Below are positions 14,363 to 45,139 of a DNA stretch of 53,651 nucleotides, piece by piece. Source of the stretch: Oscillospiraceae bacterium (GTDB lineage Bacteria; Bacillota; Clostridia; UBA1381); the NCBI GenBank assembly GCA_022509005.1, contig JAFLUC010000005.1, positions 1 through 53,651 on the forward strand, given 5' to 3'. A program made the position numbers and the translations under genes. The number at the start of each line of letters is the position of its first letter. The stretch's first letter is position 1. The notes below the pieces were generated by a model. It was not told the origin of the DNA and made no database searches. It saw nothing but the letters and a program-made list of their open reading frames with translations.

Positions 14363-14364
14363 AC

Positions 14365-20163: not shown

Positions 20164-20193
20164 AAACATTATTTGTTGAGGGGAGTGTTGGTT

Positions 20194-21375
20194 ATGATAT
20201 ACATAAAGAGAATAATCAAAAAAATGTTTCAATTTATTTGTAGAATTATCCCTGTGAAGAGAAAGGTTGTAGCGAGCAGTTTTGGGGGCAAAAGATATGG
20301 AGATAACAGTAAAGCTATTATAGAGGCGTTGCATGAAATAGACAATTCTATTGATATAGTATGGATAAAGGATAATAAATACACTTACAGCGTTCCCAAC
20401 TATATAAGAGTGGTAAATAAGCAATCAATCATTAGAAGATATTATGAATACACAACGGCTAAGGTGTGGATTGATACACATTATCTGCCTACCGACTTAA
20501 TACGCAGAAAGAAACAGATGTTTATCGAAACGTGGCATGGCGGTTTATCAATAAAGAAAGTCGGATATGGAAATGCTGATTTCGAAAAAAACAATAAAAA
20601 AAATCCGGGAGCGGATCGCACAGCAAAATTTGCATCGGTATGTATTTCAAACTCATCGCATTTAGATCATGTATATCGTGATGAGCTTAATTATAAAGGT
20701 CCTATATATAAATGCGGGTATCCGAGAAATGATATTCTTTTTGCAGATAATAAAGAAATAAGAAAAAAGGTATGCAGATTTTATAATATTCCGGATAATA
20801 AAAAAATCATACTTTATGTGCCTACATTCAGAGATGGGGAGCGTAGCTATGACAGTGAAAAATTGTATAGATACTTATACGGAATAGATTTTGATCTGTT
20901 GTGCAGTAATATGTCAAAAAAGTTCAAAGGTGACTGGATCGTTTTGGTGAAGCTGCATCCCGGTTTGATTATGAGCGGGATCAATATATGTGACAGCAGT
21001 AACACCATAGATGCGACACAATATACCGACATACAGGATTTGATAATGGCTTGCGATATCTGCATCTCAGATTACTCAAGTACGATATTTGAAGCTGCTG
21101 TAAGAAAAGTACCATGTTTCACTTTTGCGCGGGATTTTGAACAATACAAGGAAAAACGTGGCGTGGAATTTGAAATGGAAGAATTGCCTTTTCCGTATGC
21201 GGTTGATAATGAGGAACTTATGCGAAATATTGCTGAATTTGATTATAATGACTATCTTAAAAAATGGGAAGAATTTAAAATAAAAACCGGATTGTATGAA
21301 ACAGGTCATGCTTCATATGATGTTGCAATGAAGATAAAGGATTATATTAACGGAAAACAGATAAGCTGGGATTAA
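20194..21375 (+). CDS. CDP-glycerol glycerophosphotransferase-like protein (TagF/TagB)
   Basis: A 393-residue protein matching the poly(glycerol-phosphate) transferase family along most of its length. Features include ASSFGGKRYGDNSKAI near residue 28, IETWHGGLSIKKVGYG near 110, GYPRNDILF near 180, YVPTFRDGE near 207, LVKLHPG near 249 and CDISDYSS-like ISDYSSTIFEAAVRK near 291. The last three regions are the CDP-glycerol binding site in TagF. It probably adds glycerol phosphate (or another CDP-polyol) to the polymer at the membrane. ATG 20194 has GAGGGGAG upstream; earlier TTG starts lie on or before that site. TagD follows 22 bases later and would supply the donor. Confidence 0.88.
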   Translation: MIYIKRIIKKMFQFICRIIPVKRKVVASSFGGKRYGDNSKAIIEALHEIDNSIDIVWIKDNKYTYSVPNYIRVVNKQSIIRRYYEYTTAKVWIDTHYLPTDLIRRKKQMFIETWHGGLSIKKVGYGNADFEKNNKKNPGADRTAKFASVCISNSSHLDHVYRDELNYKGPIYKCGYPRNDILFADNKEIRKKVCRFYNIPDNKKIILYVPTFRDGERSYDSEKLYRYLYGIDFDLLCSNMSKKFKGDWIVLVKLHPGLIMSGINICDSSNTIDATQYTDIQDLIMACDICISDYSSTIFEAAVRKVPCFTFARDFEQYKEKRGVEFEMEELPFPYAVDNEELMRNIAEFDYNDYLKKWEEFKIKTGLYETGHASYDVAMKIKDYINGKQISWD

Positions 21376-24982: not shown

Positions 24983-25011
24983 TTGACTTTTTAGCATAGA
25001 TTTGTTATAAT
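24983..25011 (+). promoter_or_regulatory. Sigma-A promoter for the giant surface protein
   Basis: TTGACT (24983-24988), a 17-base spacer and a perfect TATAAT (25006-25011). Transcription would start near 25018, which excludes an in-frame ATG at 25017 as the start and supports ATG 25053, with AAGGAGG at 25038-25044. Confidence 0.85.
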
Positions 25012-25052
25012 ATTATATGTATACATATATACTCTGTAAGGAGGACGCATTT

Positions 25053-28000
25053 ATGAGAAGACATAATTCTGTTTTGAAAGATTTCATGTATAATCATAAT
25101 ATACATAAAAGATATATTGCATTTTTAACGGCACTGTCGCTGATGATTACGTTGGCGGTTCCCTTTGCTGTGACAAAGGAGGTGACGGCCGCAGATGATC
25201 CCAGTACCCCGTGGTTTGATGAGGCACTGGAGGATAAGCCGGACGGCGCTCATGGGCTGACAAAAGATGAGATTACAGGTGTGGACGTTTCTGTCAGCGG
25301 CAATGCCAGCGCTGAGTATGATGAGGAAAATAACAGATGGGTTATCCAAACCGAGGATGATCAGGTGAGCGCGACATTTAATCTTAGCTATACAATAGAT
25401 AACGATTCGATTTCATTAGATCAGCCATATCTCTACTATGAGATTCCCGAGGGCATAGAGATCCCCAAAGCTATTTTTGGTCAGACGGCGGCGGTTACCG
25501 ACCCGAACTTCAATGGGATTGCGGGTTACGTCTCCATCAACGAGGATGGTTTGCTGGTTATCAGGTTTACCGATGAGTATATTGAAGCGAAGCTGTCTGA
25601 TCCCGGCAAATCCGATGGTACAGTTACATTTTGGGGTACCATTTTCAGAGATGATACCGCAAGCGGAGATCGGGATATAGAGATTGGAGACACAGATATA
25701 AAATTCGAGTTCCCGGATAACAACTTTACCGTAACGAAAACAGGTAAAGCGGAGGAGGATTCATCTAACGGAAAGGCAGTTATTGACTGGGAAATAACAA
25801 TCAAGAATCAGTATGTAGGAGATGATGACAATAACTTAAACGGCTTCTGGTTGGAGGATCCGCGTTTTAAGAACGCGGTTGGCGGCACTGCAGGCATTGA
25901 AGTTACTCCCTCCGGTCTCGGAGAGTTTAAAACAAATCCTGACGGAAGCGTATATTATCAGTTTTACGATAACCTTGGAGCTGCACCGGACAAAGTAACC
26001 TTTAAGTTCAAAGAGGAGGTTGATTACAAGGATACCGGAAATACGGTTAGTAACACAGCCACGCTTTATGATGAAAAGGATGTAAAGGTGGATGACGATA
26101 AAAAGAGCGTTACCTTGGAGAAGACCGTTATCAAAAAAGGAGGTAAAGTTGAGTATACCGAAGCCGGTCAGGAAGATATCATTAATTGGACAGTTACCGT
26201 AAAGCGTCCTTATGGTCTTAGTCTTAAGGGCTATTATGTTGAGGACGAAGCGTTTAAGCATCTGACAAAGGAAGATATTAAATTAGACCCAAACATTGAT
26301 TTCACACTTGATCCGGATACCGGCAGAATCACATTTAACGGAGATGCCGATGAAGTTACTATCACCTACAAAACAAACGTAAAGGGTCAGGATGACGGTC
26401 TTGACAGAGGCGGTTTTGATGAGGAGAAGAGTAAGGGTAGGATAAAAAATAAATCTAAACTCCTCACCCCGAAAAAGGACGTAATAGAAGAGTCGGAGGG
26501 TTATGTAGACTATCAGAAAAAGTATCATATCGACTCCAAAACAGGTACATATGATCGTGTTAACAGTAAAATTACCTGGAATATCAAGGCAAGCGCGGAA
26601 GGCAATTTGACTCTTGACAACTATGAGTTGACAGATGCTGCTTTTGCGGATGAAAGCTTCAGCCCAAAAATCACGATAACTTTTAAGGATGGTCATCAGG
26701 CAACTGTTGAAGCTGCAACATTTCCGGCTACTATTGAATGTCCTTATGATGACACAACAGCTACAATAACAAAGGATGGCGATACATTAAAAATCGCGGG
26801 TGATGTAAAAAGCATTGACATTACCTATGCGACAGCAGTCAGTGATGAGCAAAAAAACAGCGGCGAACTCATTTACAATGAAGTCACAGACAAGGATGGC
26901 GATGGCGTGACTTCAGATGGTGTAGACGTTAAAAACAGACATTCCACAAAAAAGAAGTATCTTAGATCAAACACAGTTACCGATGAGAAAAACGGCATTT
27001 GGTATTTCGATCCCGAAGGCGGCGATTTGACAAGAACCATGTATTGGCAGATCGATATGGTAAGTGATACAGGATTTAAAGATTATACTTTGACAGATAA
27101 TTTAACGGATAAGCCCGCATATGCTGATCATTATATTAACAAAGATAGTATCGTAGTTACGGCGTATACGGATAATACCTCGGAATACAGTGGAAATGGT
27201 GAAAAATTAAAACCCGGTACAGATTATACTATCGAATGGACTCCCAACGAGAGTAATCCAACCGGATTTGTAATTCATTTTAATGAAAGCGTGGATAATG
27301 CAAACTTCCACTATGTAAAGGTGACCTATAACAGCACATTCACCATTCATGTCGATCAAATTCCTGAGGATGCGTATGACGAGAACGGACAGATTAAAAT
27401 TAACTTCAAAAATAAAGCAAACGACAGTGAGGCTGATCACGAGTACGTTATTCAGGATAAAACCCACGTTGCAAAAACTAAACTGACACTCAAGAAGGTT
27501 TGGAATGACGGCGGTAATACCACCAAGCGTAAGGACATTACATATCGTTTGCAGCGCAGACTCGTTCCGGGCGGTAAATGGGAAACGATTTACTGGGATG
27601 ACGCGGCAAATGAAGGTAAAGGTGATTGGGTTGTTGACCCGACCAACAAGCATACCGATACGCTGACTGCCGATGATAATGAGATAGACGGCAGCGACGA
27701 TATCTGGACTAAGGTGATAGAGAATCTTCCGAAGGATACGGAAAAGCATGACAGCCTTTATTACTATCGTGTGTTAGAGGTTTCCGTTGACGGATATACC
27801 ACCGTTTATGAAGACGATATTGATACGACTGGTGTTACAGGCGGAGACTTTACAATCACCAACAACCTGGAAAGAGGTCTCGAGAAATCAATCATCGGAA
27901 AAAACGGTAAGATTAGCGATGGTGCCACTATTAATCTCAATGATTTAGAGAAGTGGACAGATGCTGATGGAGTGGAGTGCTATATTATCAGGTATCATAT

Positions 28001-31000
28001 TGACGTGGCAACCTATGACGGACAGAGATATACACTGACAGACAAGATTCCCGAAGGGTTCACTTTAATACACAAACCAGACCTTGGATGGGGTGAAGAG
28101 TCGGATCATTATCCGTTATATTGTCAAAAAGGCACGTTGACACCTATGTATTATAGGGAACTAGACGCACAGGATTTCCAGAATGGTAACTATCATTATG
28201 ATGAAGACAATAGAATAGTCTACTTTGGTCTTTATTATGAAGTTACTTATATTGAATATGAAATCAAGATACCGGTTAAAGAATTGGAAGAAAAGGTTGC
28301 GGACAGCAAAAAAGGTTTTGCTGTCGAGAACTATGTTTCAGATGAGTCCGGAACATCAAGCTCCGTAAAGGTAACAATTACAGGCACTCCGCAGGCTACA
28401 ACTCCACCTGCAGAGGCTGGAACTATTAAGAAGTCGGTAACTACTGCAAATGATAGTGAGAACTCCGGCGGCTTCCTGGCTACGAATAGTGAAATTTCGT
28501 ATTCTATCTATGTCAATAAGGATGGAAAGAAGCTCTCCAATGCAGATGAGTATGATATTGTTGACGATCTGAACTTCGGAGAGTTCACATTGATGGTAGA
28601 AGACCCGAACGGCAACGACTATGTTGGAAATGACGGAACAAGATATAGAGCGGAACATTATACAGCAGCACAAGCAAAAGAAATGCTTGAGGCGGGTCTG
28701 CTCGAGCTTACTGTTGAAGAAGTGATCGGCACTGATGCGGACGGCAAAGAGATCACAGCTCCGGTGTCAAACTATTCATACGTCTTTGATGACACTCCGA
28801 TGACATATGAAACATCAACGGTGACGTACACTTTCAGCAATAACCATGATTGGGATGCATATGGTGCTAAGGCCGGAGACGTGGTAACATTTACTGTAAC
28901 CGGTGAACCCGGGTATACAATTGGACCTTCGTGGTATGGTGGTCTTGATATTATGTGTGATGGCATAGTGTTTGAAACACTTACAGGAAGGACTTTTGAC
29001 AAAGATGGTAATCTGGAGTTTACCGCCACAATACCTGAAGGTATAACCGAAGGTCATATTCAAATTTATGATAATCAAGAAATAACAGGTATATCAGGTA
29101 CAGCTGTAAGAACTACCGCTATTGAAGCATCAGGCGCGAGACTCATAGTGACGGTACCGGACGAGAAGTATCTTAAGATTACTTATAGGTACAATATCAC
29201 CTGTGAAGGCGGAATTCTCACTGACAATAGTATGCTGACTGTTTCAAATAAGGTTTCGATGGATACCGGAACCACATCTGCAAGCGACCAGACAGATGAG
29301 GGCTCGTTCAGGGCATCCGGAGCGATCGGAACAATTACGAACAGCAGCTATCCGAAGGTTGTCAAGTACAATGTAGGTAACACTAATGAAAAGCTGTCCG
29401 GCTCTGAGTTCTACGTTGCCCGTTGGGAAACGGATGCGGACGGTCAGAATGGTAAGTGGGTTTTTGCGGTAATTAGTGAGGAACCTAAATTCAGCTCTGA
29501 TAAGACCGACAGCGAAGGTCATCCGATTGATGGATACTATGACCTGGATTTCAAAAACAAAGATTATTCGACAACGGGTGAAGATATCCCACAGAGCTTA
29601 CTGGATGCAGAAAAAACCGGAACAAATGCAACACTCAGCTTTGGTGAAGATGATTATAAATACGACACCAATAAAGTCAACATGGAGTCGAAATATCTGT
29701 ATAAGTTTATTGAGATCAAGGCTCCAGATAATTATGAAGCGTGGGATGAGCAGGTCAGCGGTATTGCGGTCACGAACGAAACAAAGTATTCCAATCTGAA
29801 GGATTTGCTGGCGGCTTACCTGAAAAGTCCGGATTCCTTTAAAAATAGTGCCTACCATAATCTGCTTAGTAATTTTGTGTATGTGCATTACTATAGATTC
29901 GGTACGGATGAAGTTTCAGGACCACAGGATGCATTGAAAAAGATGGAGACTATTCCGCTCGGCGGAACGATCGGCATTCCTAACGATAAGCTGATTAAGA
30001 TCTCAGCTCAAAAAACATGGGATGGCTCCCTGTCGGACGTGGAGGTCACCTTTAAGCTGTACTGGTCCTATACAAAATCAAGCTCAGGTATCCCGGCTGA
30101 CGCCAAGGAAGCCAAAGCGGCTGATCTGGGTCTGTCAGCTCTTGAGAATCCGAAAACGGTTTCGGATAACGGTAAAGCCGTATGGGAAAATCTGCCTAAC
30201 GGTAAGGATGACAAACCGATTTACTACTATGTGAAGGAAACCTCATATAAGGTGAACGGCGTGACCTACACGTTGCAGTCTGACGGCACATATAAGGATG
30301 CGGACGGAAATGAAGGCATCTATAGTCCGACCTATACCGGAAACGGAGCAAATAAGGATACCACAATCAAGGTAACGAACTCTGCCGGTCTTCTGGTGTA
30401 TAAGGTATGGAAATACTCCGACGGAAGCATTATGGATGAGAAGGATTGGCCGGTAAAACAGATTAAATTTAAGCTGTACGGCAAAAAGGACGGCAAGGAG
30501 GAGCAGATTAAAAACCCGGATTCCAAAGACGGTATGTTTATTTTAGCCGCTAAGGACTGGGAATGTTCAATAAATGCAAGTCTTCTTGCGGGCTATACTT
30601 CTTTCCGAGTGGAAGAGGATAAGGACGAAGTGAAGCTGTATGGCTATACCATTTCTTATACATATAACGTCAACGGCAAAACAGGTGCAATCACGATTAC
30701 AAACAAGAACACCAAGCCAACCAGCGTTGATGTTTCTGTGGAGAAGAAGTGGATTGATAGTGACTCTTCGGAGCGTCCTAAATCAATTACATTGGATCTG
30801 TATCAGACTACCGTATATCAAAATGCCGTTGACCGGTCGACTACGGTGGACGACAATACTAAACTGATTAAGACTGTAACCTTACCCGGCGAGGAAGGTA
30901 CAGTGATTGATCCGGAAACCGGTAGCTGGTCATGGACATATGAGAACCAGCCTTATGAGGACAGCAACAGCAATAGATATTACTACTACTTTGTCGAAAG

Positions 31001-33596
31001 GTCGGTAGATGGTTACTCGGCAAAATACGACAGAACAGATCGTTCTAATTCGCAGTCAGTTACCATCACGAACACATCGGATGACATGCTTGTGGATAAG
31101 GTATGGAAGGATGCGGACGGAAATCTGATAGATGTAACAGACAAGGAAATCGAGATTGAGATCTACTACGATAAAAATCAACAACCGGTGACATACAGAA
31201 CTTTTAGCTCAGGTCCGTTAAATTCTGTTGGAAAAATGATGTTCAACAGTCCGTTTGGTATAAGCACGATGAGCGCTCCTTCAAAATCGGATCTTAAGGT
31301 TTATGCATTAGGCGATTCGATTACAGCTGGTTATGGGGCGTGGAATAATTCTTATCCTGACCAATTAAAGGAGATGTTAATAAAAGACGGATACACAAAT
31401 GCAGAGGTAACCAATTCTGGTGTATCAGGAGAAAAAATAGAGGAAATAGAGAAGAGGGTTCCGGAGAAGCTGGATTATGATATTACAACGATTATTGCGG
31501 GAACAAATAATCTGCTGAATACAAATGAAACAATAGCTGAAATGAGAGACCGCATGGTATCCCTGATCAACAATGTGTTCAAATCAGGCGATGATGATCA
31601 TGTTGTATTCGTAGGCAGTGTGCCGAGGATGACTGAGCTTAGCTGGCCTTGGAGAAAAGGCTATAGCACCGATCCTGCATATGGAAATAAATTCGGTACC
31701 GAAGAAGCTTTGCAGGATGCATGGGATAGCCTTGTCACCGACTACAACACGATGCTGTATAATCTTGTTTGTGAATATCAAGATAATGGTGACTATAAAG
31801 GCAGAATTTACTATTTAGATACCTATTCCGCTGTTGGCGATAAATTAGATGATGGCGTTCATCCGACTGCGCAGGGCTATATGAATATTGCTAATAAGTT
31901 CAAATCTGCAATAGACAGCTACTTCGACAAGACAATCGAAAATGACCCATCTCCTGACGAGGCCGGCAACGGTGACAATACCGGCGGCAATGAGGGTGAC
32001 AATACCGGTGGCGGAAACACCGGCGGCGATGGCGACAATACCGGTGGCGGAAACACCGGCGGCGGTGACAACACCGGCGGCGATGGCGACAATACCGGTG
32101 GCGGTAACACCGGCGGAGGTACAACAGGCGGTGTAACGGCGAAGGGATACCCTGCTGACTTCTTCAACGAGGATGGCGACATCAATCGTGATAAATACAC
32201 GACGTACTCCATAAACGGTCAGAGCAGCATTAAGATCAAGTCCACAGACGAAAATGTGACTGTGGGTGAAGATGGAATATGGCACTTCCAGTTCAGTGGT
32301 CTCCCTAAATATGACACAGACGGAAATGAAATGATCTACTACGTAGTGGAAAAGTCCATCGATGGCTATACAACGTCGTATGATAGAGACGCGGAAACCG
32401 GAAAGATTACCATCACTAACCAAAAAGAGCCGGAGAGCGGCATAGATATCGAAAAGATATGGAAGGAGAAGGACGGCACGGAAGCGTCCGGAAACGCTGA
32501 GCCGACATCGGCGGACTCGATTACGGTTACACTGACTCGAACGAGAACAGCGAAAGCAACACCGGAACCGACCCCAACGCCGGAAGTAACCCCGACACCG
32601 GGTACAGAAGAGACACCGACAGCAACTCCGACAGCGTCACCGACGCCAACACCAACACCAACACCAACGCCAACACCAACACCAACGCCAACACCAACAC
32701 CAACACCAACACCGGGCACGGATCCGGATGTTGTACCTGATAATCATGACGGTAACTTTATGGTATTCAATATTGGTGATACGCAACCAACCAATATAGC
32801 CGTAGTACTTTATGGTGAGTATAGCAGCACGCCACCATCGTTTAGTTTCGAGGTTTCTCACGATGGTTGGGGCTGGGGTGGTTGGCTTGCTAAATTTGGT
32901 TCATACACAAATAACGGTTCGGCCGTGTGGGAAGATAGTGCATGGGTTGTAAAATTAGACTCTGTAATAGACATATCATCCTTAAGCAGTTACGCAAGTA
33001 TTGATATAGTGTGCTATGCGACTAATGATGGTGGTGCCCATGTTAAAGATGTTCGCTTCTATTATGGCGACACATCCACGCAGAGCATAGCATCCACCAA
33101 TGCACAGATGCTTCCGAACATACCGTCAATGTACGGAACCGCAGATGTCAGCGACGCAGCAGCTCCAATTGATGCTGCGGGAAATCCTGATGTAGAGGAA
33201 TTGACAATCACAATCTCTCGTGATGACGATAAGGACGGCAAGTGGACCACGATCAGTGACGAGGATAGACAGAAGCTCAAAGAGTTCTGCTTGTTGGATG
33301 ACGATAAGTATGAGTACAGCTATACCATTAAAGAGGTCTCATCACTTGAAGACTATGAAGCGTCGTATTTCATAGACGGTGAGCCAATAGGCGATGGAGG
33401 ATTTAAGCTTAACAGCAATTCCAAGGTCACGGTAACGGTTGTAAACACCAAGACCACGGATACCGAATATCCTGATGTCGATCTCCCCAATACTGGCGGT
33501 ATTGGATTCCCGTTTGTGGCTGCTGGCGCGGCTATTGCGGGATTGGCATTGGCTATGTCACGGAAAAAGCGTAAGCGTTACAGCAGTGGCAAGTAA
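25053..33596 (+). CDS. Giant LPXTG-anchored Cna_B-repeat adhesin with embedded SGNH hydrolase domain
   Basis: A 2,847-residue wall-anchored surface protein. A long signal peptide ends near residue 46 (ALSLMITLAVPFAVTKEVTA). Residues ~55-225 look like an adhesive beta-sandwich. Several ~115-residue beta domains follow to ~800 (GKAVIDWEITIK, QEDIINWTVTVK, NSKITWNIKA). Cna_B-like domains lie at about 806-935, 1648-1780, 1780-1890, 1892-2010 and from 2011. The domain from 2011 is broken by an SGNH hydrolase: Ser2089 in GDSIT, GTNN at 2150-2153, Asp2267 and His2270 in DGVHP. A Gly/Asn linker follows, and the domain resumes near 2404. The last is broken by a Pro/Thr stalk and a beta-sandwich at ~2560-2680. 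The sorting signal LPNTG is at 2811-2815, then a hydrophobic helix and a KKRKR tail. Cna_B domains usually form isopeptide bonds. Probably adhesion plus ester hydrolysis. Confidence 0.92.
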   Translation: MRRHNSVLKDFMYNHNIHKRYIAFLTALSLMITLAVPFAVTKEVTAADDPSTPWFDEALEDKPDGAHGLTKDEITGVDVSVSGNASAEYDEENNRWVIQTEDDQVSATFNLSYTIDNDSISLDQPYLYYEIPEGIEIPKAIFGQTAAVTDPNFNGIAGYVSINEDGLLVIRFTDEYIEAKLSDPGKSDGTVTFWGTIFRDDTASGDRDIEIGDTDIKFEFPDNNFTVTKTGKAEEDSSNGKAVIDWEITIKNQYVGDDDNNLNGFWLEDPRFKNAVGGTAGIEVTPSGLGEFKTNPDGSVYYQFYDNLGAAPDKVTFKFKEEVDYKDTGNTVSNTATLYDEKDVKVDDDKKSVTLEKTVIKKGGKVEYTEAGQEDIINWTVTVKRPYGLSLKGYYVEDEAFKHLTKEDIKLDPNIDFTLDPDTGRITFNGDADEVTITYKTNVKGQDDGLDRGGFDEEKSKGRIKNKSKLLTPKKDVIEESEGYVDYQKKYHIDSKTGTYDRVNSKITWNIKASAEGNLTLDNYELTDAAFADESFSPKITITFKDGHQATVEAATFPATIECPYDDTTATITKDGDTLKIAGDVKSIDITYATAVSDEQKNSGELIYNEVTDKDGDGVTSDGVDVKNRHSTKKKYLRSNTVTDEKNGIWYFDPEGGDLTRTMYWQIDMVSDTGFKDYTLTDNLTDKPAYADHYINKDSIVVTAYTDNTSEYSGNGEKLKPGTDYTIEWTPNESNPTGFVIHFNESVDNANFHYVKVTYNSTFTIHVDQIPEDAYDENGQIKINFKNKANDSEADHEYVIQDKTHVAKTKLTLKKVWNDGGNTTKRKDITYRLQRRLVPGGKWETIYWDDAANEGKGDWVVDPTNKHTDTLTADDNEIDGSDDIWTKVIENLPKDTEKHDSLYYYRVLEVSVDGYTTVYEDDIDTTGVTGGDFTITNNLERGLEKSIIGKNGKISDGATINLNDLEKWTDADGVECYIIRYHIDVATYDGQRYTLTDKIPEGFTLIHKPDLGWGEESDHYPLYCQKGTLTPMYYRELDAQDFQNGNYHYDEDNRIVYFGLYYEVTYIEYEIKIPVKELEEKVADSKKGFAVENYVSDESGTSSSVKVTITGTPQATTPPAEAGTIKKSVTTANDSENSGGFLATNSEISYSIYVNKDGKKLSNADEYDIVDDLNFGEFTLMVEDPNGNDYVGNDGTRYRAEHYTAAQAKEMLEAGLLELTVEEVIGTDADGKEITAPVSNYSYVFDDTPMTYETSTVTYTFSNNHDWDAYGAKAGDVVTFTVTGEPGYTIGPSWYGGLDIMCDGIVFETLTGRTFDKDGNLEFTATIPEGITEGHIQIYDNQEITGISGTAVRTTAIEASGARLIVTVPDEKYLKITYRYNITCEGGILTDNSMLTVSNKVSMDTGTTSASDQTDEGSFRASGAIGTITNSSYPKVVKYNVGNTNEKLSGSEFYVARWETDADGQNGKWVFAVISEEPKFSSDKTDSEGHPIDGYYDLDFKNKDYSTTGEDIPQSLLDAEKTGTNATLSFGEDDYKYDTNKVNMESKYLYKFIEIKAPDNYEAWDEQVSGIAVTNETKYSNLKDLLAAYLKSPDSFKNSAYHNLLSNFVYVHYYRFGTDEVSGPQDALKKMETIPLGGTIGIPNDKLIKISAQKTWDGSLSDVEVTFKLYWSYTKSSSGIPADAKEAKAADLGLSALENPKTVSDNGKAVWENLPNGKDDKPIYYYVKETSYKVNGVTYTLQSDGTYKDADGNEGIYSPTYTGNGANKDTTIKVTNSAGLLVYKVWKYSDGSIMDEKDWPVKQIKFKLYGKKDGKEEQIKNPDSKDGMFILAAKDWECSINASLLAGYTSFRVEEDKDEVKLYGYTISYTYNVNGKTGAITITNKNTKPTSVDVSVEKKWIDSDSSERPKSITLDLYQTTVYQNAVDRSTTVDDNTKLIKTVTLPGEEGTVIDPETGSWSWTYENQPYEDSNSNRYYYYFVERSVDGYSAKYDRTDRSNSQSVTITNTSDDMLVDKVWKDADGNLIDVTDKEIEIEIYYDKNQQPVTYRTFSSGPLNSVGKMMFNSPFGISTMSAPSKSDLKVYALGDSITAGYGAWNNSYPDQLKEMLIKDGYTNAEVTNSGVSGEKIEEIEKRVPEKLDYDITTIIAGTNNLLNTNETIAEMRDRMVSLINNVFKSGDDDHVVFVGSVPRMTELSWPWRKGYSTDPAYGNKFGTEEALQDAWDSLVTDYNTMLYNLVCEYQDNGDYKGRIYYLDTYSAVGDKLDDGVHPTAQGYMNIANKFKSAIDSYFDKTIENDPSPDEAGNGDNTGGNEGDNTGGGNTGGDGDNTGGGNTGGGDNTGGDGDNTGGGNTGGGTTGGVTAKGYPADFFNEDGDINRDKYTTYSINGQSSIKIKSTDENVTVGEDGIWHFQFSGLPKYDTDGNEMIYYVVEKSIDGYTTSYDRDAETGKITITNQKEPESGIDIEKIWKEKDGTEASGNAEPTSADSITVTLTRTRTAKATPEPTPTPEVTPTPGTEETPTATPTASPTPTPTPTPTPTPTPTPTPTPTPTPGTDPDVVPDNHDGNFMVFNIGDTQPTNIAVVLYGEYSSTPPSFSFEVSHDGWGWGGWLAKFGSYTNNGSAVWEDSAWVVKLDSVIDISSLSSYASIDIVCYATNDGGAHVKDVRFYYGDTSTQSIASTNAQMLPNIPSMYGTADVSDAAAPIDAAGNPDVEELTITISRDDDKDGKWTTISDEDRQKLKEFCLLDDDKYEYSYTIKEVSSLEDYEASYFIDGEPIGDGGFKLNSNSKVTVTVVNTKTTDTEYPDVDLPNTGGIGFPFVAAGAAIAGLALAMSRKKRKRYSSGK
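31964..32130 (+). repeat. Tandem repeat coding a Gly/Asn-rich linker
   Basis: Units such as GGTGGCGGAAACACCGGCGG and GGCGATGGCGACAATACCGG alternate, encoding GGGNTGGDGDNTGG-type linkers after the SGNH domain. Unit length varies in multiples of three, so changes in copy number would keep the frame. Confidence 0.85.
32559..32720 (+). repeat. Pro/Thr-coding repeat (PTPT stalk)
   Basis: Repeats of CCAACACCAACG and close variants encode a run of alternating Pro and Thr, preceded by looser PT-rich sequence. In surface proteins such runs make an extended, often glycosylated stalk. The six-base periodicity is prone to in-frame slippage. Confidence 0.88.
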
Positions 33597-33644: not shown

Positions 33645-33684
33645 GGGCGTATCAGAACTAATTAGTTTTGATACGCCCCTTTTA
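33645..33684. terminator. Bidirectional terminator between the adhesin and the sensor kinase
   Basis: GGGCGTATCA at 33645-33654 pairs with TGATACGCCC at 33669-33678, and the middle is also nearly palindromic. CTTTT follows on the plus strand and CTCTTCTTTT on the minus strand. It serves both convergent genes. Confidence 0.85.
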
Positions 33685-36859: not shown

Positions 36860-38635
36860 ATGATAGTCGGAATAGATATAGGAACGAGCTATTCATGCGC
36901 CGGCAGAGTAAACGGTGAGGGTAAGGTTGAGCCGGTTGAGCTCAGTACGGCCATCAGCATGTACGGCAGTAAATATTCACTGCCGTCTGCGGTATTTGTA
37001 GATGATGGCGGAAATGTGCAGGTAGGACAGGCTGCAATAAACAGCCGCGGTATAAAACCTCAGAATTTTATTATGGAGTTCAAGCGTTTGCTGGGTCAGA
37101 AAACTCCCGTTTATTTAGGCGAAAAGGAGTTTATGCCGGAGGATCTTTATACCGAACTGTTCCGACATATAAAAAAGCAGACGGAAAGAATCGGCGGCGA
37201 GCCGATTGAAAAGGCGTATGTGACATATCCGGCGTCTTTTCAGGAAACAAAAAAGAAAAAAATAGTATCTGCGGCAAAAAGGGCAGGGCTGTTTAATGTG
37301 GAGCTGGTGGATGAGCCGACATCCGCGGCTATGTGCTACTGTGCGACAGGTGATTTACAGGACGGGCAGACAGTGCTTATCTATGACTTCGGCGGCGGAA
37401 CATTTGATGTATCGCTGGTAAAGTATGAGAATAACAGTTTCACTTTGCCCACACACCCGTTAGGTTTAGAGCGCTGCGGCGGAATTGATGTAGACAGAGC
37501 AATTTATAACAATATGACCGCTGCTGTAAACAATGCAGCTCCGGAATTTCTTGAGAAAATAAGCGGACTGCCACGCAAGCGGTTTGAAAGCCAGCTTGCT
37601 GAAAAAGCAGTGAAAGCAAAGCATCATCTGACGCAATACGGAGAATTCAGTGATGTAATATCTACAGGTCCCTTTGATGACGGCATCCCGTATACACTCA
37701 GCCGTGAAAAGCTTGAGAGTATGATAGCAGGAATAGTAGGTAATACCATAACGGTATGCCGTGATATTCTAAGTCGTGCCGGTCTTAAGGTCCATGAGCT
37801 TGCAGGAATACTTATGGTCGGCGGAACCAGCCGCATTCCGCTCGTTCGCCGTATGACGGAACTGTTCGCGGGAGATGTGCCTGTAATATACAGTATTGAT
37901 CCGGAGCTTGCGGTAGCGCAGGGTGCGGTTTTATATGAGGAATATAAGAAAGAGCATAATGCCGGGGAGATACATAATAAAGACACAGAACATATTGATA
38001 ATGAAGAAAAAATTAATGCAGCTGCGGAGCTGCTGAAAAGGACAGCGGAGCAGGGGAATGCGGGTGCGCAATGCGAATTGGGCTATTGGTATAACACCGG
38101 AACAGAGGTATCCGAAGATAAAACAGAGGCTGTGAGATGGTACCGGAAAGCAGCGGAGCAGGGTCATGCTATAGCTCAATTCAATCTGGGCTTTTGCTGC
38201 TTTAACGGATATGGTGTGAAAGAGGATAAAGGCGAGGCTGTGAGATGGTATAAAGCGTCGGCCGAACAAGGAAATGCGGATGCGCAATGTAATCTGGGTA
38301 TTTGTTATGCTAATGGGATGGGCGCACCTGAAGATAAAACAGAGGCTGTAAGATGGTATCGGAAAGCAGCGGAACAAGGTCACGCTATGGCGCAATACAA
38401 TCTGGGTGTTTGCTACGAAGACGGAATAGGAGTACACACGGATAAAACAGAGGCTGTGAGATGGTATCAGGCAGCTGCGGAACAAGGTAATGCCACAGCG
38501 CAAAACTATCTTGGTATTTGCTATGAATACGGAATAGGGATACATGAAGATAAAAGAGAAGCTTTAAAATGGTATGGCAAGGCTGCACAGCAGGGGGATG
38601 AGGATGCCCGGAAAAACCTTTTACGTTTGAGATAA
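36860..38635 (+). CDS. Hsp70-type ATPase fused to Sel1 repeats
   Basis: A 591-residue protein. Residues 1-365 are a complete Hsp70 nucleotide-binding domain: phosphate loop VGIDIGTSYSCAG, TYPASFQETKKKKI, VDEPTSAAM, second phosphate loop LIYDFGGGTFDVSLV and adenosine loop GILMVGGTSRIPLV. The beta substrate-binding domain and lid of DnaK are missing. After a charged linker (~366-390), five 36-residue Sel1 repeats run to the C terminus, with the pattern AEAVRWYRKAAEQGxAxAQxNLGxCY. Sel1 repeats bind other proteins, so they may select the client or partner. It would bind ATP in the cytosol. A GrpE-like gene at 42617 could be the exchange factor; no J-protein is seen. A GGAGG site precedes the ATG. 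Confidence 0.92.
   Translation: MIVGIDIGTSYSCAGRVNGEGKVEPVELSTAISMYGSKYSLPSAVFVDDGGNVQVGQAAINSRGIKPQNFIMEFKRLLGQKTPVYLGEKEFMPEDLYTELFRHIKKQTERIGGEPIEKAYVTYPASFQETKKKKIVSAAKRAGLFNVELVDEPTSAAMCYCATGDLQDGQTVLIYDFGGGTFDVSLVKYENNSFTLPTHPLGLERCGGIDVDRAIYNNMTAAVNNAAPEFLEKISGLPRKRFESQLAEKAVKAKHHLTQYGEFSDVISTGPFDDGIPYTLSREKLESMIAGIVGNTITVCRDILSRAGLKVHELAGILMVGGTSRIPLVRRMTELFAGDVPVIYSIDPELAVAQGAVLYEEYKKEHNAGEIHNKDTEHIDNEEKINAAAELLKRTAEQGNAGAQCELGYWYNTGTEVSEDKTEAVRWYRKAAEQGHAIAQFNLGFCCFNGYGVKEDKGEAVRWYKASAEQGNADAQCNLGICYANGMGAPEDKTEAVRWYRKAAEQGHAMAQYNLGVCYEDGIGVHTDKTEAVRWYQAAAEQGNATAQNYLGICYEYGIGIHEDKREALKWYGKAAQQGDEDARKNLLRLR
38044..38623 (+). repeat. 108-bp tandem repeat coding Sel1 units
   Basis: The string AGGCTGTGAGATGGTA recurs with a period of 108 bases (near 38127, 38235, 38343, 38451 and, more diverged, 38559), giving five 36-residue units. 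The near identity of units at DNA level suggests recent unit duplication or exchange. Confidence 0.85.
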
Positions 38636-38697
38636 ATGTTCCCAATGATATGTTTTAGTCCGAATTTACCCCAAAAAGCTCCGAATTTGCCAAAATC

Positions 38698-38726
38698 ATG
38701 ACAAAATCAAAAAATGATGTTAAAAT
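38698..38726 (+). promoter_or_regulatory. Promoter for the C39-like gene
   Basis: ATGACA (38698-38703), a 17-base spacer and TAAAAT (38721-38726) preceded by TG. Transcription from near 38733 excludes an upstream in-frame ATG at 38714. It gives the second half of the Hsp70/dynamin block its own promoter, although no terminator separates the halves. Confidence 0.65.
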
Positions 38727-38770
38727 GGGAACATCAAAAAACACAAAACAAAAACAAGGGGGAAACAATT

Positions 38771-39976
38771 ATGTTTGACAATTTATTAGATAATCTGATT
38801 GATTATGTAGAGGGCTTTTTAGGTGATGATGACGAAAACAATACGGATGATGATTTTAAAGAGGAAGAAGATTTTATATCAGACACCGGCCATGGCTCTG
38901 ACTCTGACGATGACGGATTTTTATTCGAGGAGTCCGTTGATATTGACGGCGATGGGATTATAGACGGCGTGACGACTTATGAGGACATCGATGGTGATGG
39001 AGTTGCAGATATTGCCACTACATATCTGGATACAGACGGTGATGGAATGATTGATTCAGCAACCTCATATCAGGACACAGATGGTGACGGAATTATTGAT
39101 ACTGTTTCCGTGAGCGAATATCTGGATACCGATGACGATGGTATTATGGATTCATTTGTGACGGACTCATATTATGATATTGATGGAGACGGTACTGTTG
39201 ATATACATGAAACGGAGATTTTGTCAGATGATTATCATGCCGTAATTACAGAGGCAGACATGGACAACGACGGTGAGGCGGATTATATTGTAGTCCAGGA
39301 AGATCTGGATGGAGACGGGATCGTTGACAATTCTGAGGTGATCCCGACCGCGACAGATTATCCTTATGATATAGATGACATAACAGATAATGTTGGGAAT
39401 GCCCCTGCTTATGAACAGTTTGATCCTGATAACTGTGACCTTGATGATATAATCGGCGACCCGGGTGCAGCGATGGACTCATGGCATGTCCAGGAGACTA
39501 GTTCCAGTTGCGCAGTAGCTTCACAGGAATTCATTCTTGAACAGCTGACCGGCTATGAGTTCGATGAGGCAGATCTCAGAGACTTTGCTGAGACAAACGG
39601 CTGGTATGATCCGGATGGCGGCACCTCTATGAGAGATGTAGGTAATATACTTGAGGCTGCGGGACTCGAGGTTGAGCGCAGCACCGGAAATTCTATTACT
39701 GATATTGAGAACTGTCTTGAAAACGGCGGTCAGATTATAGTAGGTGTTGACGCATATGAGCTTTGGGATGGTGAAAGCAACGACTTTTACTTGCCGGGAG
39801 ACGGCGCAAATCATGCGATCCAGGTAATCGGCGTTGATCACAGTGACCCGTCAGAGCCGATGGTGATCATTAACGATTCCGGCACGGCAAACGGCGGCGG
39901 AGCGATGGTATCCCTGGATGTGTTTATGGACGCGTGGGAGGACAGCGGCTATTTCATGGTAGAAGCATATGCTTAA
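38771..39976 (+). CDS. C39-like cysteine peptidase with acidic calcium-type repeats
   Basis: A 401-residue very acidic protein. Residues ~55-190 contain at least seven DxDGDG(x)xD loops (for example DIDGDGIIDG, DTDGDGMIDS), which in EF-hand, dockerin or thrombospondin-3 proteins bind calcium. Residues ~235-400 look like a papain-fold C39_2-type peptidase: Cys247 in SSSCAVASQEFIL, His348 in NHAIQVIGVD and Asn368/Asp369 in VIINDSG. No signal peptide or membrane helix is visible, so either it acts in the cytosol or its export is not Sec-dependent. Start ATG 38771 has AAGGGGG nine bases upstream and fits the promoter. Calcium-type repeats on an apparently internal peptidase are odd. Substrate unknown. 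Confidence 0.8.
   Translation: MFDNLLDNLIDYVEGFLGDDDENNTDDDFKEEEDFISDTGHGSDSDDDGFLFEESVDIDGDGIIDGVTTYEDIDGDGVADIATTYLDTDGDGMIDSATSYQDTDGDGIIDTVSVSEYLDTDDDGIMDSFVTDSYYDIDGDGTVDIHETEILSDDYHAVITEADMDNDGEADYIVVQEDLDGDGIVDNSEVIPTATDYPYDIDDITDNVGNAPAYEQFDPDNCDLDDIIGDPGAAMDSWHVQETSSSCAVASQEFILEQLTGYEFDEADLRDFAETNGWYDPDGGTSMRDVGNILEAAGLEVERSTGNSITDIENCLENGGQIIVGVDAYELWDGESNDFYLPGDGANHAIQVIGVDHSDPSEPMVIINDSGTANGGGAMVSLDVFMDAWEDSGYFMVEAYA
38936..39330 (+). repeat. Degenerate repeat coding DxDGDG loops
   Basis: Units like GATATCGATGGTGATGGAG and GATACAGACGGTGATGGAAT recur every ~42-60 bases and encode the acidic loops of the C39-like protein. Confidence 0.75.
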
Positions 39977-40003
39977 TATTTATTTGTGAAAGGATTAATT
40001 GTT

Positions 40004-40555
40004 ATGGAAAACAAAGCATTTGAAAATATTTCAATTAAAAAAATCATAAAGGAGTTCAATAGCGGAGAATTTCGCCGAAGTTCCATTCCTCTGGAGGTTG
40101 TGTCAGGCTGGCCGTGTCTTAGCAGATTAGGAAAAACTCTTTGTCTGACAATTCCGTATTTTTCACGCAAGGCCGTCGACAAAAAAGCTGCGCTATATCC
40201 GATTTATTGTTCCGTAACCATTCCTTTGGGCAATCCGGAAAAAATCGTAGATTACACGCTTTATCCTATTCAGAAGGAGTGGAAGGACGTAGATTATAAG
40301 AAGCCTGTGGGATATTTTAAGCATGAGGCGTTAAATGATGTAGCCACAAAGGGCGAATATACGGCTCTTCGTGACGAGCTTTACGGTTACATAGATGAAA
40401 TGGCGAAGTCGATAATAAACGGTAAGCCATTTGAGCAGGCAGAGGCCGCATCAAAGCTTTTCTCAAAGCTGATGGAGCCGGGCTTATACCCGTATTATCT
40501 CAGAATTAACAAAAAGTTTTATTCATTTTTCTGTGAGAACAAAGAGGAACAATAA
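40004..40555 (+). CDS. Protein of unknown function in the Hsp70/dynamin block
   Basis: I do not recognise this 183-residue protein. It has no signal peptide or membrane span. The N-terminal 20 residues are charged, and a mixed middle holds SGWPCLSRLGKTLCLTIPYF, then YPIYCSVTIPLGNPEKIVDY. The C-terminal ~70 residues are helical (ELYGYIDEMAKSIINGKPFE). The strand pattern in the middle suggests a compact alpha/beta domain. ATG 40004 is chosen because GAAAGGA lies 8-10 bases upstream. Its stop overlaps the next start (TAATG), so it is made together with the first dynamin-like GTPase and may bind it. This is inference from position only. Confidence 0.75.
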   Translation: MENKAFENISIKKIIKEFNSGEFRRSSIPLEVVSGWPCLSRLGKTLCLTIPYFSRKAVDKKAALYPIYCSVTIPLGNPEKIVDYTLYPIQKEWKDVDYKKPVGYFKHEALNDVATKGEYTALRDELYGYIDEMAKSIINGKPFEQAEAASKLFSKLMEPGLYPYYLRINKKFYSFFCENKEEQ

Positions 40556-42540
40556 TGGAAAATACATTCTTCCGGCTTAAAAATGACGCGCGTAAATTAA
40601 TGCTTGAGAGCGGAAAACTTGCCGAGGCACTCAAGTATGATACTTCCAAAGAGAGGATAGACGATATAATTAAGGAATTTGATAAAAAGGACATGATGGT
40701 TGTTGCTGTCGGAGAGGCGAGACGCGGTAAGTCGTCATTGCTCAATGCGCTCTTAAATGAGACGGAAACGATTTTTCCTGTAGATCTCAATGTGTGCACC
40801 AATGTTGTGACAATCGTGCGGTATAGCGAGACCGAGCAAATCAGCGCCTTAATTAATGACCCATCGGCACCGGACGGCTCGCGTATTGAGAGGATTACCA
40901 GACAGCAGATTTCTGAATATGTTTCCGAGCAGGGCAATCCCAACAACTATAAGGATGTGCAGTGCCTTGATGTGGCAATCCCGAATGAGGCATTGAAAGA
41001 CGGTGCAGTCTTTGTGGATACTCCCGGTGTGGGCAGTCTTAATCCTATCCATGCTGAGGTTACGTATTCATTCCTGCCAAATGCCGACCTGATTATTTTT
41101 GTCACGGATTCACTCTCGGGTATGACAGAAACAGAGCTGAAATTCCTTGAACGCGGCTACAAATCATGTCCCAATATCGTTTTTGCCCTCACAAAGAAGG
41201 ATCTGAATGTCGATTATCAGGAAATAGCAAATGATAACAAGGCAAAGATAAAGTCTAAGATATCCATGGAAGAGGAGGACATAAAAATTCTGCCTGTTTC
41301 CAGTATGGCAAAGCTAAGATACCTTTCCAAAGGAAATAAGAGCATGTATAAAAACAGCGGCTTTATAGAATTTGAGAAAACCATATGGGATACTATAGCA
41401 AAAACAAGGGCTAAAAGCGTTATACTTCCGTTCATAGTCGAAACAGAGCAGGAACTGAATAAAATATCAAATAATATAGTAGCTCAGCATAAGCTGCTCA
41501 GCTCTGATAAAGAAAACACCGGTAAGCTTATCGAGAAGCTGCAAAAGGAGATCGACAAGCTTCAGCAGTTTGATGATGAAAGCGCAGAATGGCGGACGCG
41601 ACTGAACCTGAGTTATATGGATATTTCTAACGACGCGACGGACAAAATTCAAAAGATCGGCAATCAGACAAAAAAGATCTATATGGACGCATCAAATCAG
41701 CTGGGAGTAAAAATTTGCAAGGCACAGAATTATACACAGGTTCTTCAGATGATAAACCAATATCTCAGCGAATGCACGATCAGCTTGCGTGATGATATTT
41801 TATATGCGTTTGCCGAGCTTATTGAACGCACAAACATGAGTCTTGGTCTTGATATTGATATTGACAAGAAATTTGTGGACAGGATTCAGTTTGTTTCGGA
41901 AGATCCGGAGATCAGGTTCAGGAAGAAAACCGTAAGCGAACAGGTTATATCCAGGGGTAGAACTATCAGCCTGAACACAGGAGGCATTACAACTATCACT
42001 TCAATAATCGGTGGAATTGCCGGATTTATTTTTGGAGGAGGCCCGGTGGGAATTACAGCAGGAACGAATCTGGGCGCTGTGATAGGAGCAGTTATCGGAG
42101 CCGGAAATGCGGCAACGGTGCTTATCAGCCGGCATGATATGACAGATGTGTCGGCAGTCAATACCGCTTTTAATCAGATGATATCTTCCCAGACAACAAG
42201 TATGACAAAAAATGTCAACAGGGCTCTCGCCGAACTCAAAGAATCGTTAATTTCTGATTTTGCGAAGAAAATCAGGATGCGTAAAACAGAAACGCAGCAG
42301 AATATCAACCGCAGCAGAGAAAATATAAACCTTAAGAAAAATGAGATTCCACAAAAGCGGGCGGCGCTCAAGGAACAGAATGACCGTATTAACGCGCAGC
42401 TCAATGCTATAATTAAAATGGAAAAAGCAATTGAAACCTTCAGCCCTGCACCGGTAAAACAAATCCCGGTAATACCTGCTCCACGGGCGGAGGAGGAAGA
42501 AAAAAAAGATAATGATCCCATAGATTATGGATTTATATGA
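40555..42540 (+). CDS. Dynamin-like GTPase 1 (membrane-associated)
   Basis: A 661-residue dynamin-superfamily GTPase. G1 is GEARRGKSS at 53-61, followed by a G2-type region with conserved Thr (CTNVVTIV). G3 is DTPGVG from 155, and G4 is TKKD at 213-216. Long helical segments follow (LIEKLQKEIDKLQQF and beyond), as in the stalk of bacterial dynamin-like proteins. A Gly/Ile-rich hydrophobic stretch at ~472-525 (GGIAGFIFGGGPVGITAG) corresponds in position to the membrane paddle of BDLP. The C-terminal ~100 residues are a coiled coil with an acidic tail. It probably binds and remodels membrane in a GTP-dependent way, likely with the second GTPase at 43321. It shares a TAATG junction with the gene before. 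Confidence 0.88.
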   Translation: MENTFFRLKNDARKLMLESGKLAEALKYDTSKERIDDIIKEFDKKDMMVVAVGEARRGKSSLLNALLNETETIFPVDLNVCTNVVTIVRYSETEQISALINDPSAPDGSRIERITRQQISEYVSEQGNPNNYKDVQCLDVAIPNEALKDGAVFVDTPGVGSLNPIHAEVTYSFLPNADLIIFVTDSLSGMTETELKFLERGYKSCPNIVFALTKKDLNVDYQEIANDNKAKIKSKISMEEEDIKILPVSSMAKLRYLSKGNKSMYKNSGFIEFEKTIWDTIAKTRAKSVILPFIVETEQELNKISNNIVAQHKLLSSDKENTGKLIEKLQKEIDKLQQFDDESAEWRTRLNLSYMDISNDATDKIQKIGNQTKKIYMDASNQLGVKICKAQNYTQVLQMINQYLSECTISLRDDILYAFAELIERTNMSLGLDIDIDKKFVDRIQFVSEDPEIRFRKKTVSEQVISRGRTISLNTGGITTITSIIGGIAGFIFGGGPVGITAGTNLGAVIGAVIGAGNAATVLISRHDMTDVSAVNTAFNQMISSQTTSMTKNVNRALAELKESLISDFAKKIRMRKTETQQNINRSRENINLKKNEIPQKRAALKEQNDRINAQLNAIIKMEKAIETFSPAPVKQIPVIPAPRAEEEEKKDNDPIDYGFI

Positions 42541-42616
42541 GTGTGCGGAGGTTTATCAATAAGACGGAGGGCACATAGCCGGCCGAAAGTTTAGATTAGT
42601 GAAGGGATATAACACA

Positions 42617-43306
42617 ATGAAAAAAACAGATTCCAAATATAAAAAAATGGGCATATTCCGGGATAATTTCGTCAAGCTGATGTCTCTTTGCGGAACAGAA
42701 GACGAAAAGGAGGAGATCGCTCTGCCGCCGAAGCGTGGTTGGCTCATGGAAAGACTTTTTCCGGATAAGGGATTTTACAGCTTTCTTGACCAGCTCAACG
42801 AACAGACAATAAAGGCTATTGACGTAATGAAGGAGAAAAATATTGATCTCTGGAACAGCAGTCAGAATGAGGAGGAGCTTGCAAGACTGCAGGATGAACT
42901 GGAAGCTTTGCAAAGAGATTATAAGACAGAGGCGATCATAAGCCCGGAGTCTGAAAAAAATCATATGCAAAAAAAGAATGATACGTTGGTTGAAAGTCTG
43001 ATTGAGCTTCGTGATGACCTATATGCCCGCAGAGAACTAATAAGAATGGATAATCCCGATAATACTGATGCTTTGAAGCTTATAGAATTTGAACTCAAAG
43101 CTACAAGGCGCGTTATGGAAAAGGCGGGAATAACAGTTATGGAGGACAGCGGCGTATTCAACGGCAGCAGGCAGACAGTTGCCAATACAATAGAAACAGA
43201 CGATCCGTCTCTTAACAACCATATAGAATCGGTATTCAGACCGGGCTATATGGCTGATGGCGAAGTGCTGCGCGGACAGGAAGTCACGGTTTACGTTCTG
43301 AAATAA
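42617..43306 (+). CDS. GrpE-like nucleotide exchange factor
   Basis: A 229-residue protein. The C-terminal half resembles GrpE: a helix LIELRDDLYARRELIRMDNP at ~127-150, then KLIEFELKATRRVMEKAGIT. The beta end NHIESVFRPGYMADGEVLRG at ~203-222 matches the GrpE signature in which an RPGY-x-x-x-G-x-VLR strand ends the protein. The N-terminal ~115 residues are unrelated to canonical GrpE and may bind a partner. GrpE releases ADP from Hsp70, so its presence close to an Hsp70 ATPase is meaningful. A housekeeping GrpE should lie beside dnaK and dnaJ elsewhere. ATG 42617 is chosen because AAGGGA precedes it by nine bases. Confidence 0.75.
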   Translation: MKKTDSKYKKMGIFRDNFVKLMSLCGTEDEKEEIALPPKRGWLMERLFPDKGFYSFLDQLNEQTIKAIDVMKEKNIDLWNSSQNEEELARLQDELEALQRDYKTEAIISPESEKNHMQKKNDTLVESLIELRDDLYARRELIRMDNPDNTDALKLIEFELKATRRVMEKAGITVMEDSGVFNGSRQTVANTIETDDPSLNNHIESVFRPGYMADGEVLRGQEVTVYVLK

Positions 43307-43320
43307 AGGAGAAAGAGGAT

Positions 43321-44874
43321 ATGTCTTTAAAGTCAGATGTATATAGGTTGCTCAATGACACGCAGCTGATTTGCGCCGATATTCCTGAGGCATACACATT
43401 ATACAGCGAAATTGAGAAAATGAAGGAGCGCCTTAACCAGCCTTTGCGCGCTGCGATCGTAGGAATTATGAAGGCGGGAAAGTCCACCTTTATGAATGCT
43501 CTTATGGGAAAAAATATTGTGGGTGTGGGTACGCTTGAGACCACATATACTGTCAGTTGGTTTAAATATGCCGATGAACCGAGTCTTACAATCTATTTCA
43601 GAAACGGTGAAGAACGCTGTGCTCCCTTTGAGGAACTGGAAAAATGGTCGGTCAGGGAATCAGGCAATCCCGAGATAGATAATGTAAAATATCTGGTAAT
43701 AAATTATCCCAGCGATATTTTGAAAAAGATCGAGTTTATCGACACCCCCGGACTTAATTCTGTCTATGGCACAGACGCGCAGAATACTCTTGACTTTCTT
43801 GCGATAAGAAGCTCAGAGGAAACCGTGGCTGAGGCGTCTATGGCTGACGCGGTAATATATGCCTTTAATCGGTCTTTGGCGGGGGAGGATGCCCGTGTTC
43901 TGCAATCGTTCCATGCAGGGGATTTTTCAAATCATTCGCCTCTTAACTCGATAGGTATTCTCACGAAGGTGGACATGACCGGTGCGATTTATGACTGGCC
44001 CGATGGTTCTCCTGTAAAAGGAGCTGAGGTTATTGTCAATGCCAGTATGGCAAATCCGATGATTAAAAAGATATTGTACGCGATATTTCCTGTTTGCTCA
44101 GTAGCGGTTGAAGGATGTTCGGTATTGACTGAAGAGGACTGGGATGTGCTCGGGAATATTTCGCATACCGATCCGGAAATGCTTATGGATCTTTTATGGG
44201 ATGCGACCGAATTTTCTGTGAGTGAGAATGAGGAGTTTATGGTACTCGGATCTCCGGCCATCAGAAGGCGTCTCATAGACGTGCTGGGCCAGTATGGGAT
44301 TTTCGAGCTTGCCAGACAGCTCCGTGAAGGCAGGAGTCCTGATGAAGCGCGGCAAATACTTACTGATAAATGCGGAATAACAGCTGTGAAAGACGTTATT
44401 CTCAGCCATTTCGGCAACAGAACCTTTATAATAAAGGTAGGATATATATTCAATCATCTTCGCGCTTTGGTTGAACGGTTTGAAAAAGATCCCGTCACCG
44501 GATTTGCTCTTAAGAATATCTGTTATGAGCTTAAAAATAACATTGACGATATATTGTCAAATCAGCAGAGAATGCAGGAACTGAAAGTCGTACAGATGTA
44601 TTATAACGAGCAGCTCGTCTTTAACAGCGATATTGAAAAGGAAGATTTTCTTCATATAACCGGCGAATACGGACAGAGTGTAGAGGATAGGCTCGGAGTT
44701 GACGGAACATGTTCAATAAGGGAGTTGAAAAAGATTGCCGGAAAGAAAATGGCACAATGGCGGTATAATGCCAATAGTTTTATGGGCAATCATTATTATA
44801 TAGAGGCCGCTAATATAATTACAAGATCGTATGAGCATATATTTTATGCGCTCAACGCGCTTGACGAGGTTTAA
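43321..44874 (+). CDS. Dynamin-like GTPase 2
   Basis: A 517-residue dynamin-family GTPase. G1 is GIMKAGKST at 48-56, G2 TTYTV near 78, G3 DTPGLNS from 141 and G4 TKVD at 215-218. About 200 helical residues follow, but no hydrophobic paddle-like stretch, unlike the 661-residue partner. This suggests a pair in which one GTPase carries the membrane anchor and the other assembles with it, as in known tandem bacterial dynamin-like proteins. It ends the block; a strong terminator starts 32 bases later. An AAAGGAG site lies upstream of the ATG. Confidence 0.88.
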   Translation: MSLKSDVYRLLNDTQLICADIPEAYTLYSEIEKMKERLNQPLRAAIVGIMKAGKSTFMNALMGKNIVGVGTLETTYTVSWFKYADEPSLTIYFRNGEERCAPFEELEKWSVRESGNPEIDNVKYLVINYPSDILKKIEFIDTPGLNSVYGTDAQNTLDFLAIRSSEETVAEASMADAVIYAFNRSLAGEDARVLQSFHAGDFSNHSPLNSIGILTKVDMTGAIYDWPDGSPVKGAEVIVNASMANPMIKKILYAIFPVCSVAVEGCSVLTEEDWDVLGNISHTDPEMLMDLLWDATEFSVSENEEFMVLGSPAIRRRLIDVLGQYGIFELARQLREGRSPDEARQILTDKCGITAVKDVILSHFGNRTFIIKVGYIFNHLRALVERFEKDPVTGFALKNICYELKNNIDDILSNQQRMQELKVVQMYYNEQLVFNSDIEKEDFLHITGEYGQSVEDRLGVDGTCSIRELKKIAGKKMAQWRYNANSFMGNHYYIEAANIITRSYEHIFYALNALDEV

Positions 44875-44906
44875 ATGATAATAGGAATGAGTGTCCGTAA
44901 AAGGAC

Positions 44907-44945
44907 AAAACAGCGGTGATCACATACTGAACCCGCTGTTTTATT
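44907..44945 (+). terminator. Terminator ending the Hsp70/dynamin block
   Basis: AAAACAGCGG at 44907-44916 pairs with CCGCTGTTTT at 44933-44942, followed by ATT. A 10-base stem with a T-rich end. Confidence 0.85.
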
Positions 44946-44963
44946 TACTGCTGTAAATACGGG

Positions 44964-44992
44964 TTGCAATTTTGGTAAATTTATGTTATACT
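44964..44992 (+). promoter_or_regulatory. Promoter for the FG-GAP lipoprotein operon
   Basis: TTGCAA (44964-44969), a 17-base spacer and TATACT (44987-44992), with TG upstream of the -10. Transcription would start near 44999, about 32 bases before the small ORF at 45031. Confidence 0.7.
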
Positions 44993-45138: not shown

Positions 45139-45139
45139 T

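Follow-up and report, generated by a model that had tools for sequence, protein, structure and literature searches.

An SGNH hydrolase domain apparently nested within a single Cna_B domain of a predicted wall-anchored adhesin

Can a stalk domain of a Gram-positive adhesin hold a whole enzyme between its strands and, if so, what would that enzyme do at the cell surface? The question is raised by a giant adhesin gene of an Oscillospiraceae bacterium (GenBank assembly GCA_022509005.1, contig JAFLUC010000005.1, positions 1 to 53,651; this entire stretch of 53,651 nucleotides is referred to here as the window). The gene occupies one intact open frame of 2,859 codons on the forward strand (25017-33596), and its residues are numbered from 25017, such that residue n begins at nucleotide 25017+3(n-1). 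An initial annotation, made from the sequence alone, described an SGNH hydrolase domain lodged inside a Cna_B domain of this protein and proposed a surface esterase that perhaps deacetylates host or plant glycans. The insert is a full-length SGNH domain in which the catalytic residues are intact, and its fold is confirmed by a structural model. The surrounding Cna_B region, as judged from profile matches, is a single domain interrupted by an insert of ~350 residues.

The N-terminal half of the interrupted domain (aa 2018-2056; 31068-31184, + strand, as for all features of the gene given below) covers positions 3-32 of the Pfam Cna_B profile (PF05738), and the C-terminal half (aa 2411-2469; 32247-32423) covers positions 33-87. 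The Pfam match itself runs over aa 2026-2056, breaks between profile positions 32 and 33, and resumes at aa 2411-2469. Alone, the halves score 14.6 and 44.2 bits, respectively, the latter passing the cut-off of 22.3 bits unaided in the natural sequence. Joined, they reach 56.9 bits over positions 3-87 of 87, and a shuffled N-terminal half followed by the C-terminal half gives 42.4 bits. Likewise, HHalign comparison with Cna_B domains of other genomes and contigs scored the joined halves at 63.7, against a mean of 50.5 (standard deviation 1.0, maximum 56.2) for 100 shuffled N-terminal halves joined to the C-terminal half, and no more than 52.0 when stretches of the insert were swapped in for the N-terminal half. 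The HHalign profile was seeded with the joined halves, the rows from the window being taken out later, and Pfam therefore serves as the independent test of the split.

Between the halves lie an entry linker (aa 2057-2089; 31185-31283) with no Cna_B match and mostly low predicted local distance difference test (pLDDT) scores, the hydrolase, and an exit linker of imperfect Gly/Asn/Thr-rich repeats (aa 2311-2372; 31947-32132; pLDDT 35-46). The initial annotation had set its nested arrangement against one in which two complete Cna_B domains stand on either side of the hydrolase. Divergent Cna_B domains do occur in this adhesin, with a low-scoring example at ~aa 1791, and the structural model does not resolve the two halves. 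However, neither side extends beyond its own portion of the profile, and the stretches needed to complete two separate domains (aa 2057-2095 and 2373-2410) contain no Cna_B match. Because the halves are complementary and these flanking stretches are without a match, a single Cna_B domain interrupted at profile position 32/33 is the reading we adopt, and two complete but divergent domains are very improbable. Harder still to credit is an assembly artefact, in which two genes were fused at the repetitive Gly/Asn linker. The exit linker is indeed repetitive, the 151-contig assembly is seemingly metagenomic, and its named relatives are metagenome-assembled genomes, but the frame is intact across 8.5 kb and halves complementary at profile position 32/33 would hardly be expected from a random join. 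All of the blocks originally reported lie in this frame (about 31083-32420), namely the Cna_B-type start DKVWKDADGNLIDVTD at aa 2027, the SGNH motifs GDSIT (aa 2099), GTNN (aa 2162) and DGVHP (aa 2279), the Gly/Asn linker, which is the exit linker given above, and, from the second Cna_B half, FSGLPKYDTDGNEMIYYVV at about aa 2426.

The SGNH/GDSL hydrolase domain (aa 2097-2288; 31305-31880) matches PF13472 over positions 1-176 of 178, scoring 57.2 bits in the whole protein against a cut-off of 32.9 (E=4.1e-15). Alignment with 29 SGNH domains places Ser2101 (Block I), Gly2138 (Block II), Asn2164 (Block III), and Asp2279 and His2282 (Block V) on invariant or near-invariant columns. Mixed alignments of Cna_B and SGNH sequences were misaligned by MAFFT and were dropped, and this SGNH alignment was used as the input for AlphaFold2. 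The resulting model has pLDDT values of 90-98 for most blocks of the SGNH part. Its best match on the PDB is 4rw0 (Z 21.3, root-mean-square deviation 1.9 over 170 residues). The CE3 enzyme 2vpt (Z 20.4) and the CE2 enzyme 2wab (Z 19.1) are also matched, and generic lipases and aryl esterases tie with both.

Display at the cell surface is indicated by the C-terminus of the adhesin (aa 2823-2859; 33483-33593), where an LPNTG cell-wall sorting signal is followed by a hydrophobic stretch and a basic tail. This region exceeds the cut-off of TIGR01167 (19.1 against 15.9 bits) and falls below that of PF00746. Three sortase genes are present in the same genome, and together these are the features of a sortase-anchored (LPXTG) protein. 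With the split profile, the intact catalytic residues, the anchor and the sortases in place, the claim that one Cna_B domain of a sortase-type anchored protein encloses an SGNH domain is supported.

In Cna_B domains, a first-strand Lys joins a last-strand Asn or Asp with the assistance of a Glu (PMC7900414, PMC8092201). Here, Lys2028, Glu2445 and Asn2468 all lie on the conserved isopeptide columns, the Lys column being conserved in 35 of 38 rows, and they flank the insert on both sides. We propose that the SGNH serine esterase is looped out of the Cna_B domain after the first third of the profile and that the two halves fold round this loop. An intramolecular isopeptide bond would then form between Lys2028 of the first strand and Asn2468 of the last, with Glu2445 helping. 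If this bond forms, the base of the loop would be covalently closed and the enzyme would become a side arm off the force-bearing path, such that a pulling force along the stalk would bypass it. The short entry linker and the long Gly/Asn exit linker would give the enzyme reach to its substrate. Once sortase had attached the adhesin to the wall via LPNTG, the enzyme would probably strip O-acetyl groups from glycans bound by the cell, most likely acetylated plant polysaccharide in an animal gut. Taken as a whole, a surface O-acyl esterase on an isopeptide-locked Cna_B socket, probably acting on acetylated plant glycans, is a reading that we hold with moderate confidence.

Several observations weigh against it. 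The Cna_B halves, which were folded without Cna_B relatives, are modelled at low confidence (pLDDT mostly 46-67), and therefore the proposal that they would form one sandwich comes from sequence inference and not from a structural demonstration. Accordingly, of the structure prediction suggested by the initial annotation, the SGNH fold was recovered and the single sandwich was left at low confidence. Block III reads GTNN in place of GxND, and the identity of the domain to its aligned SGNH counterparts is low, at 14-27%. The same Cna_B/SGNH insertion was found in none of 70 genomes of the family, none of 95 of the order (searched with SGNH alone), none of 391 and 390 of the class (overlapping samples) and none of 398 of the phylum. 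It was also absent from the genome_contigs and viral contigs searched, and plasmids gave a single SGNH domain of 27% identity.

The GTNN motif and the lack of a conserved relative carrying the same insertion would both suit an SGNH domain that is inactive and serves as a binding or spacer module in the stalk. This is improbable, since all five catalytic residues are kept on invariant or near-invariant columns and a related genome (L015) has another SGNH domain with GTNN. With regard to the empty searches, a fast-evolving surface protein that returns no relatives is not thereby proven unique, and relatives may exist outside the samples. Within the family, 10 of the 70 genomes have Cna_B and 68 have SGNH domains. 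Thus, the parts are ordinary and it is their combination that is rare in the sample. Two sets of candidates were set aside. The large SGNH proteins of the family that were scanned are glycan-active enzymes with no Cna_B match, and in another genome (L074) an SGNH domain lies near a giant Cna_B gene, but in a separate frame. No ortholog of the N-terminal half of the adhesin, which might have shown an empty site, was found in the order, and in relatives the region next to the orthologous histidine kinase showed no end of an adhesin.

What the enzyme would act upon is a separate matter, and the low identity means that a substrate cannot be transferred from relatives. The SGNH model resembles the carbohydrate esterases CE2, CE3 and Axe2 about as closely as it does sialate O-acetylesterases, TesA-type thioesterases and lipases, and a peptidoglycan O-acetylesterase is also among the structural matches. 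Such breadth would accommodate the same architecture with another target, whether host or bacterial glycans (O-acetylated sialic acid of mucin, peptidoglycan or capsule) or lipids, and polysaccharide synthesis genes do lie upstream of the adhesin gene. No sequence feature singles out a host, bacterial or lipid target, however, and congener SGNH domains accompany xylan-type glycoside hydrolases. In related genomes (L011, L015 and L024), such domains lie near the C-terminus of large proteins and are joined to GH43 with CBM4_9/CBM6, to GH115 or, in a family member, to SASA, another acetylesterase. One of these large proteins has two SGNH domains with CBM6. In addition, the named sequences closest to the neighbouring histidine kinase (60-70% identity) come from uncultured Clostridia, several of which derive from the gut or rumen of goats or cattle. 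The fusion of congener SGNH domains to GH43 or GH115 and the ruminant gut origin of these relatives thus favour a plant glycan, and another target seems somewhat unlikely. Plant polysaccharide is the most likely substrate, although this is a lean and not a result. Of the function first proposed for this protein, the displayed architecture therefore stands by sequence, and the deacetylation of plant glycans stands as that lean.

The two components of this architecture are each familiar. As in the Cna_B (PF05738) stalk domains of Gram-positive adhesins and pilins, both halves match the profile, the Lys, Glu and Asn residues are present, the domains are arranged in tandem and the protein ends in an LPXTG anchor. 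An ordinary Cna_B domain has ~90 residues, whereas that in the window has ~350 residues, including a whole enzyme, between its halves. The hydrolase, in turn, shares with known SGNH/GDSL enzymes (PF13472), among them the carbohydrate esterases CE3 2vpt and CE2 2wab/2wao (Clostridium thermocellum), a complete domain, Blocks I, II, III and V, and a fold matched at Z of about 19-21, at low identity (~20%). Unlike these, it is neither a free enzyme nor a terminal module, but is nested in a wall-anchored stalk domain. The tip pilins RrgA, GBS104 and SpaC offer a parallel, in that Cna-type domains of a sortase substrate carry a functional domain. In these pilins, a vWA domain is inserted into one Cna-type domain. 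The cargo there is an adhesive vWA domain, whereas in the window adhesin it is a hydrolase. The tip pilin vWA domain itself bears two inserted arms (PMC5536039). Similarly, PilVax places cargo in loops of the isopeptide-forming pilin FctA (PMC7900414), but is engineered and carries short peptides, whereas the window adhesin is natural and carries a whole enzyme. Both components, functional domains on pilin-type domains, and domain insertion into an adhesin stalk are known. An SGNH/GDSL domain nested in Cna_B was not found in the literature searched, which left out most subscription papers, and an SGNH hydrolase within Cna_B appears to be previously undescribed.

The next Cna_B-like domain, the last of the protein (window 32433-33461), also seems to be split, on weaker evidence, and this seems to have been overlooked by the initial annotation. 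Its first half (aa 2473-2513; 32433-32555) is recognized by HHalign (E 8e-6) and is not reported by Pfam. A Thr-Pro linker with repeats (aa 2516-2570; 32562-32726) and a ~120-residue β-rich insert (aa 2568-2690; 32718-33086) follow, and then a weakly matched second half (aa 2724-2812; 33186-33452), in which the motif YSYTIKEV...VTVVNTK was read by eye. The joined halves score 32.0 by HHalign, compared with a mean of 27.6 and a maximum of 36.3 for shuffled second halves, and the model of this domain (pLDDT 48) is too poor for use. The β-rich insert has no known family, with no Pfam or PDB relative, a low-confidence model, marginal matches only and no relatives in viral contigs. A glycan-binding role for it is a guess. 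Should this guess hold, the Cna_B domains could serve as isopeptide-locked cargo sockets, consecutive ones bearing the esterase and a probable glycan-binding module. On a single wall-anchored chain, the two would make up a covalently clamped array for catalysis and binding that functionally resembles a small cellulosome lacking dockerins, a possibility that we put forward tentatively. Third-position GC is 0.39 in the SGNH-bearing insert and 0.36 in the second insert, compared with 0.51-0.58 in the surrounding Cna_B parts. This says little about their origin, because low values (0.41-0.42) are found in the first half of the gene as well. A third possible insertion, inside another stalk domain (window 28800-29144; aa ~1262-1376, NHDWDAYGAKAGDVV...), was seen by eye, and no family or structure match to this stretch supports it.

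The adhesin gene likely starts at ATG 25053 (25053-33596, within the longest open frame from 25017), given the AGGAGG upstream and a promoter-like TTGACT-17-TATAAT (24983-25011) that matches 11 of 12 consensus bases, a consensus match only. By eye, the N-terminus is hydrophobic and signal-like, and a terminator-like hairpin followed by a T-rich stretch lies at 33645-33678 (+). The protein holds five Cna_B stretches (E 4e-19). Upstream, at window 1465-21375, is a polysaccharide synthesis cluster (sugar transferase, dTDP-rhamnose epimerase, flippase, CDP-glycerol glycerophosphotransferase and an IspD-HMGL fusion). A further cluster, at 36860-48064, encodes an HSP70-like protein with Sel1 repeats, a C39-like peptidase, two dynamin-like GTPases and an FG-GAP protein. 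Three more giant adhesins are encoded elsewhere in the genome, of 3,658 aa (L066, contig C141), 3,795 aa (L067, C130) and at least 4,305 aa (L068, C116), with FctA, DUF7601, Cna_B, DUF5979, and BspA-like LRR or DUF285 domains. A further Cna_B protein (L076, a 533-aa frame on contig C61) lies between two sortases, probably in a pilus locus.

If the proposed architecture is correct, a naturally occurring, isopeptide-locked Cna_B domain can accommodate an entire enzyme between its strands, a natural counterpart to the engineered loop insertions in pilins. It would also suggest a means of enzyme display on Gram-positive cells, away from the force-bearing path of the stalk, and would characterize an adhesin that may hold its target as well as deacetylate it.

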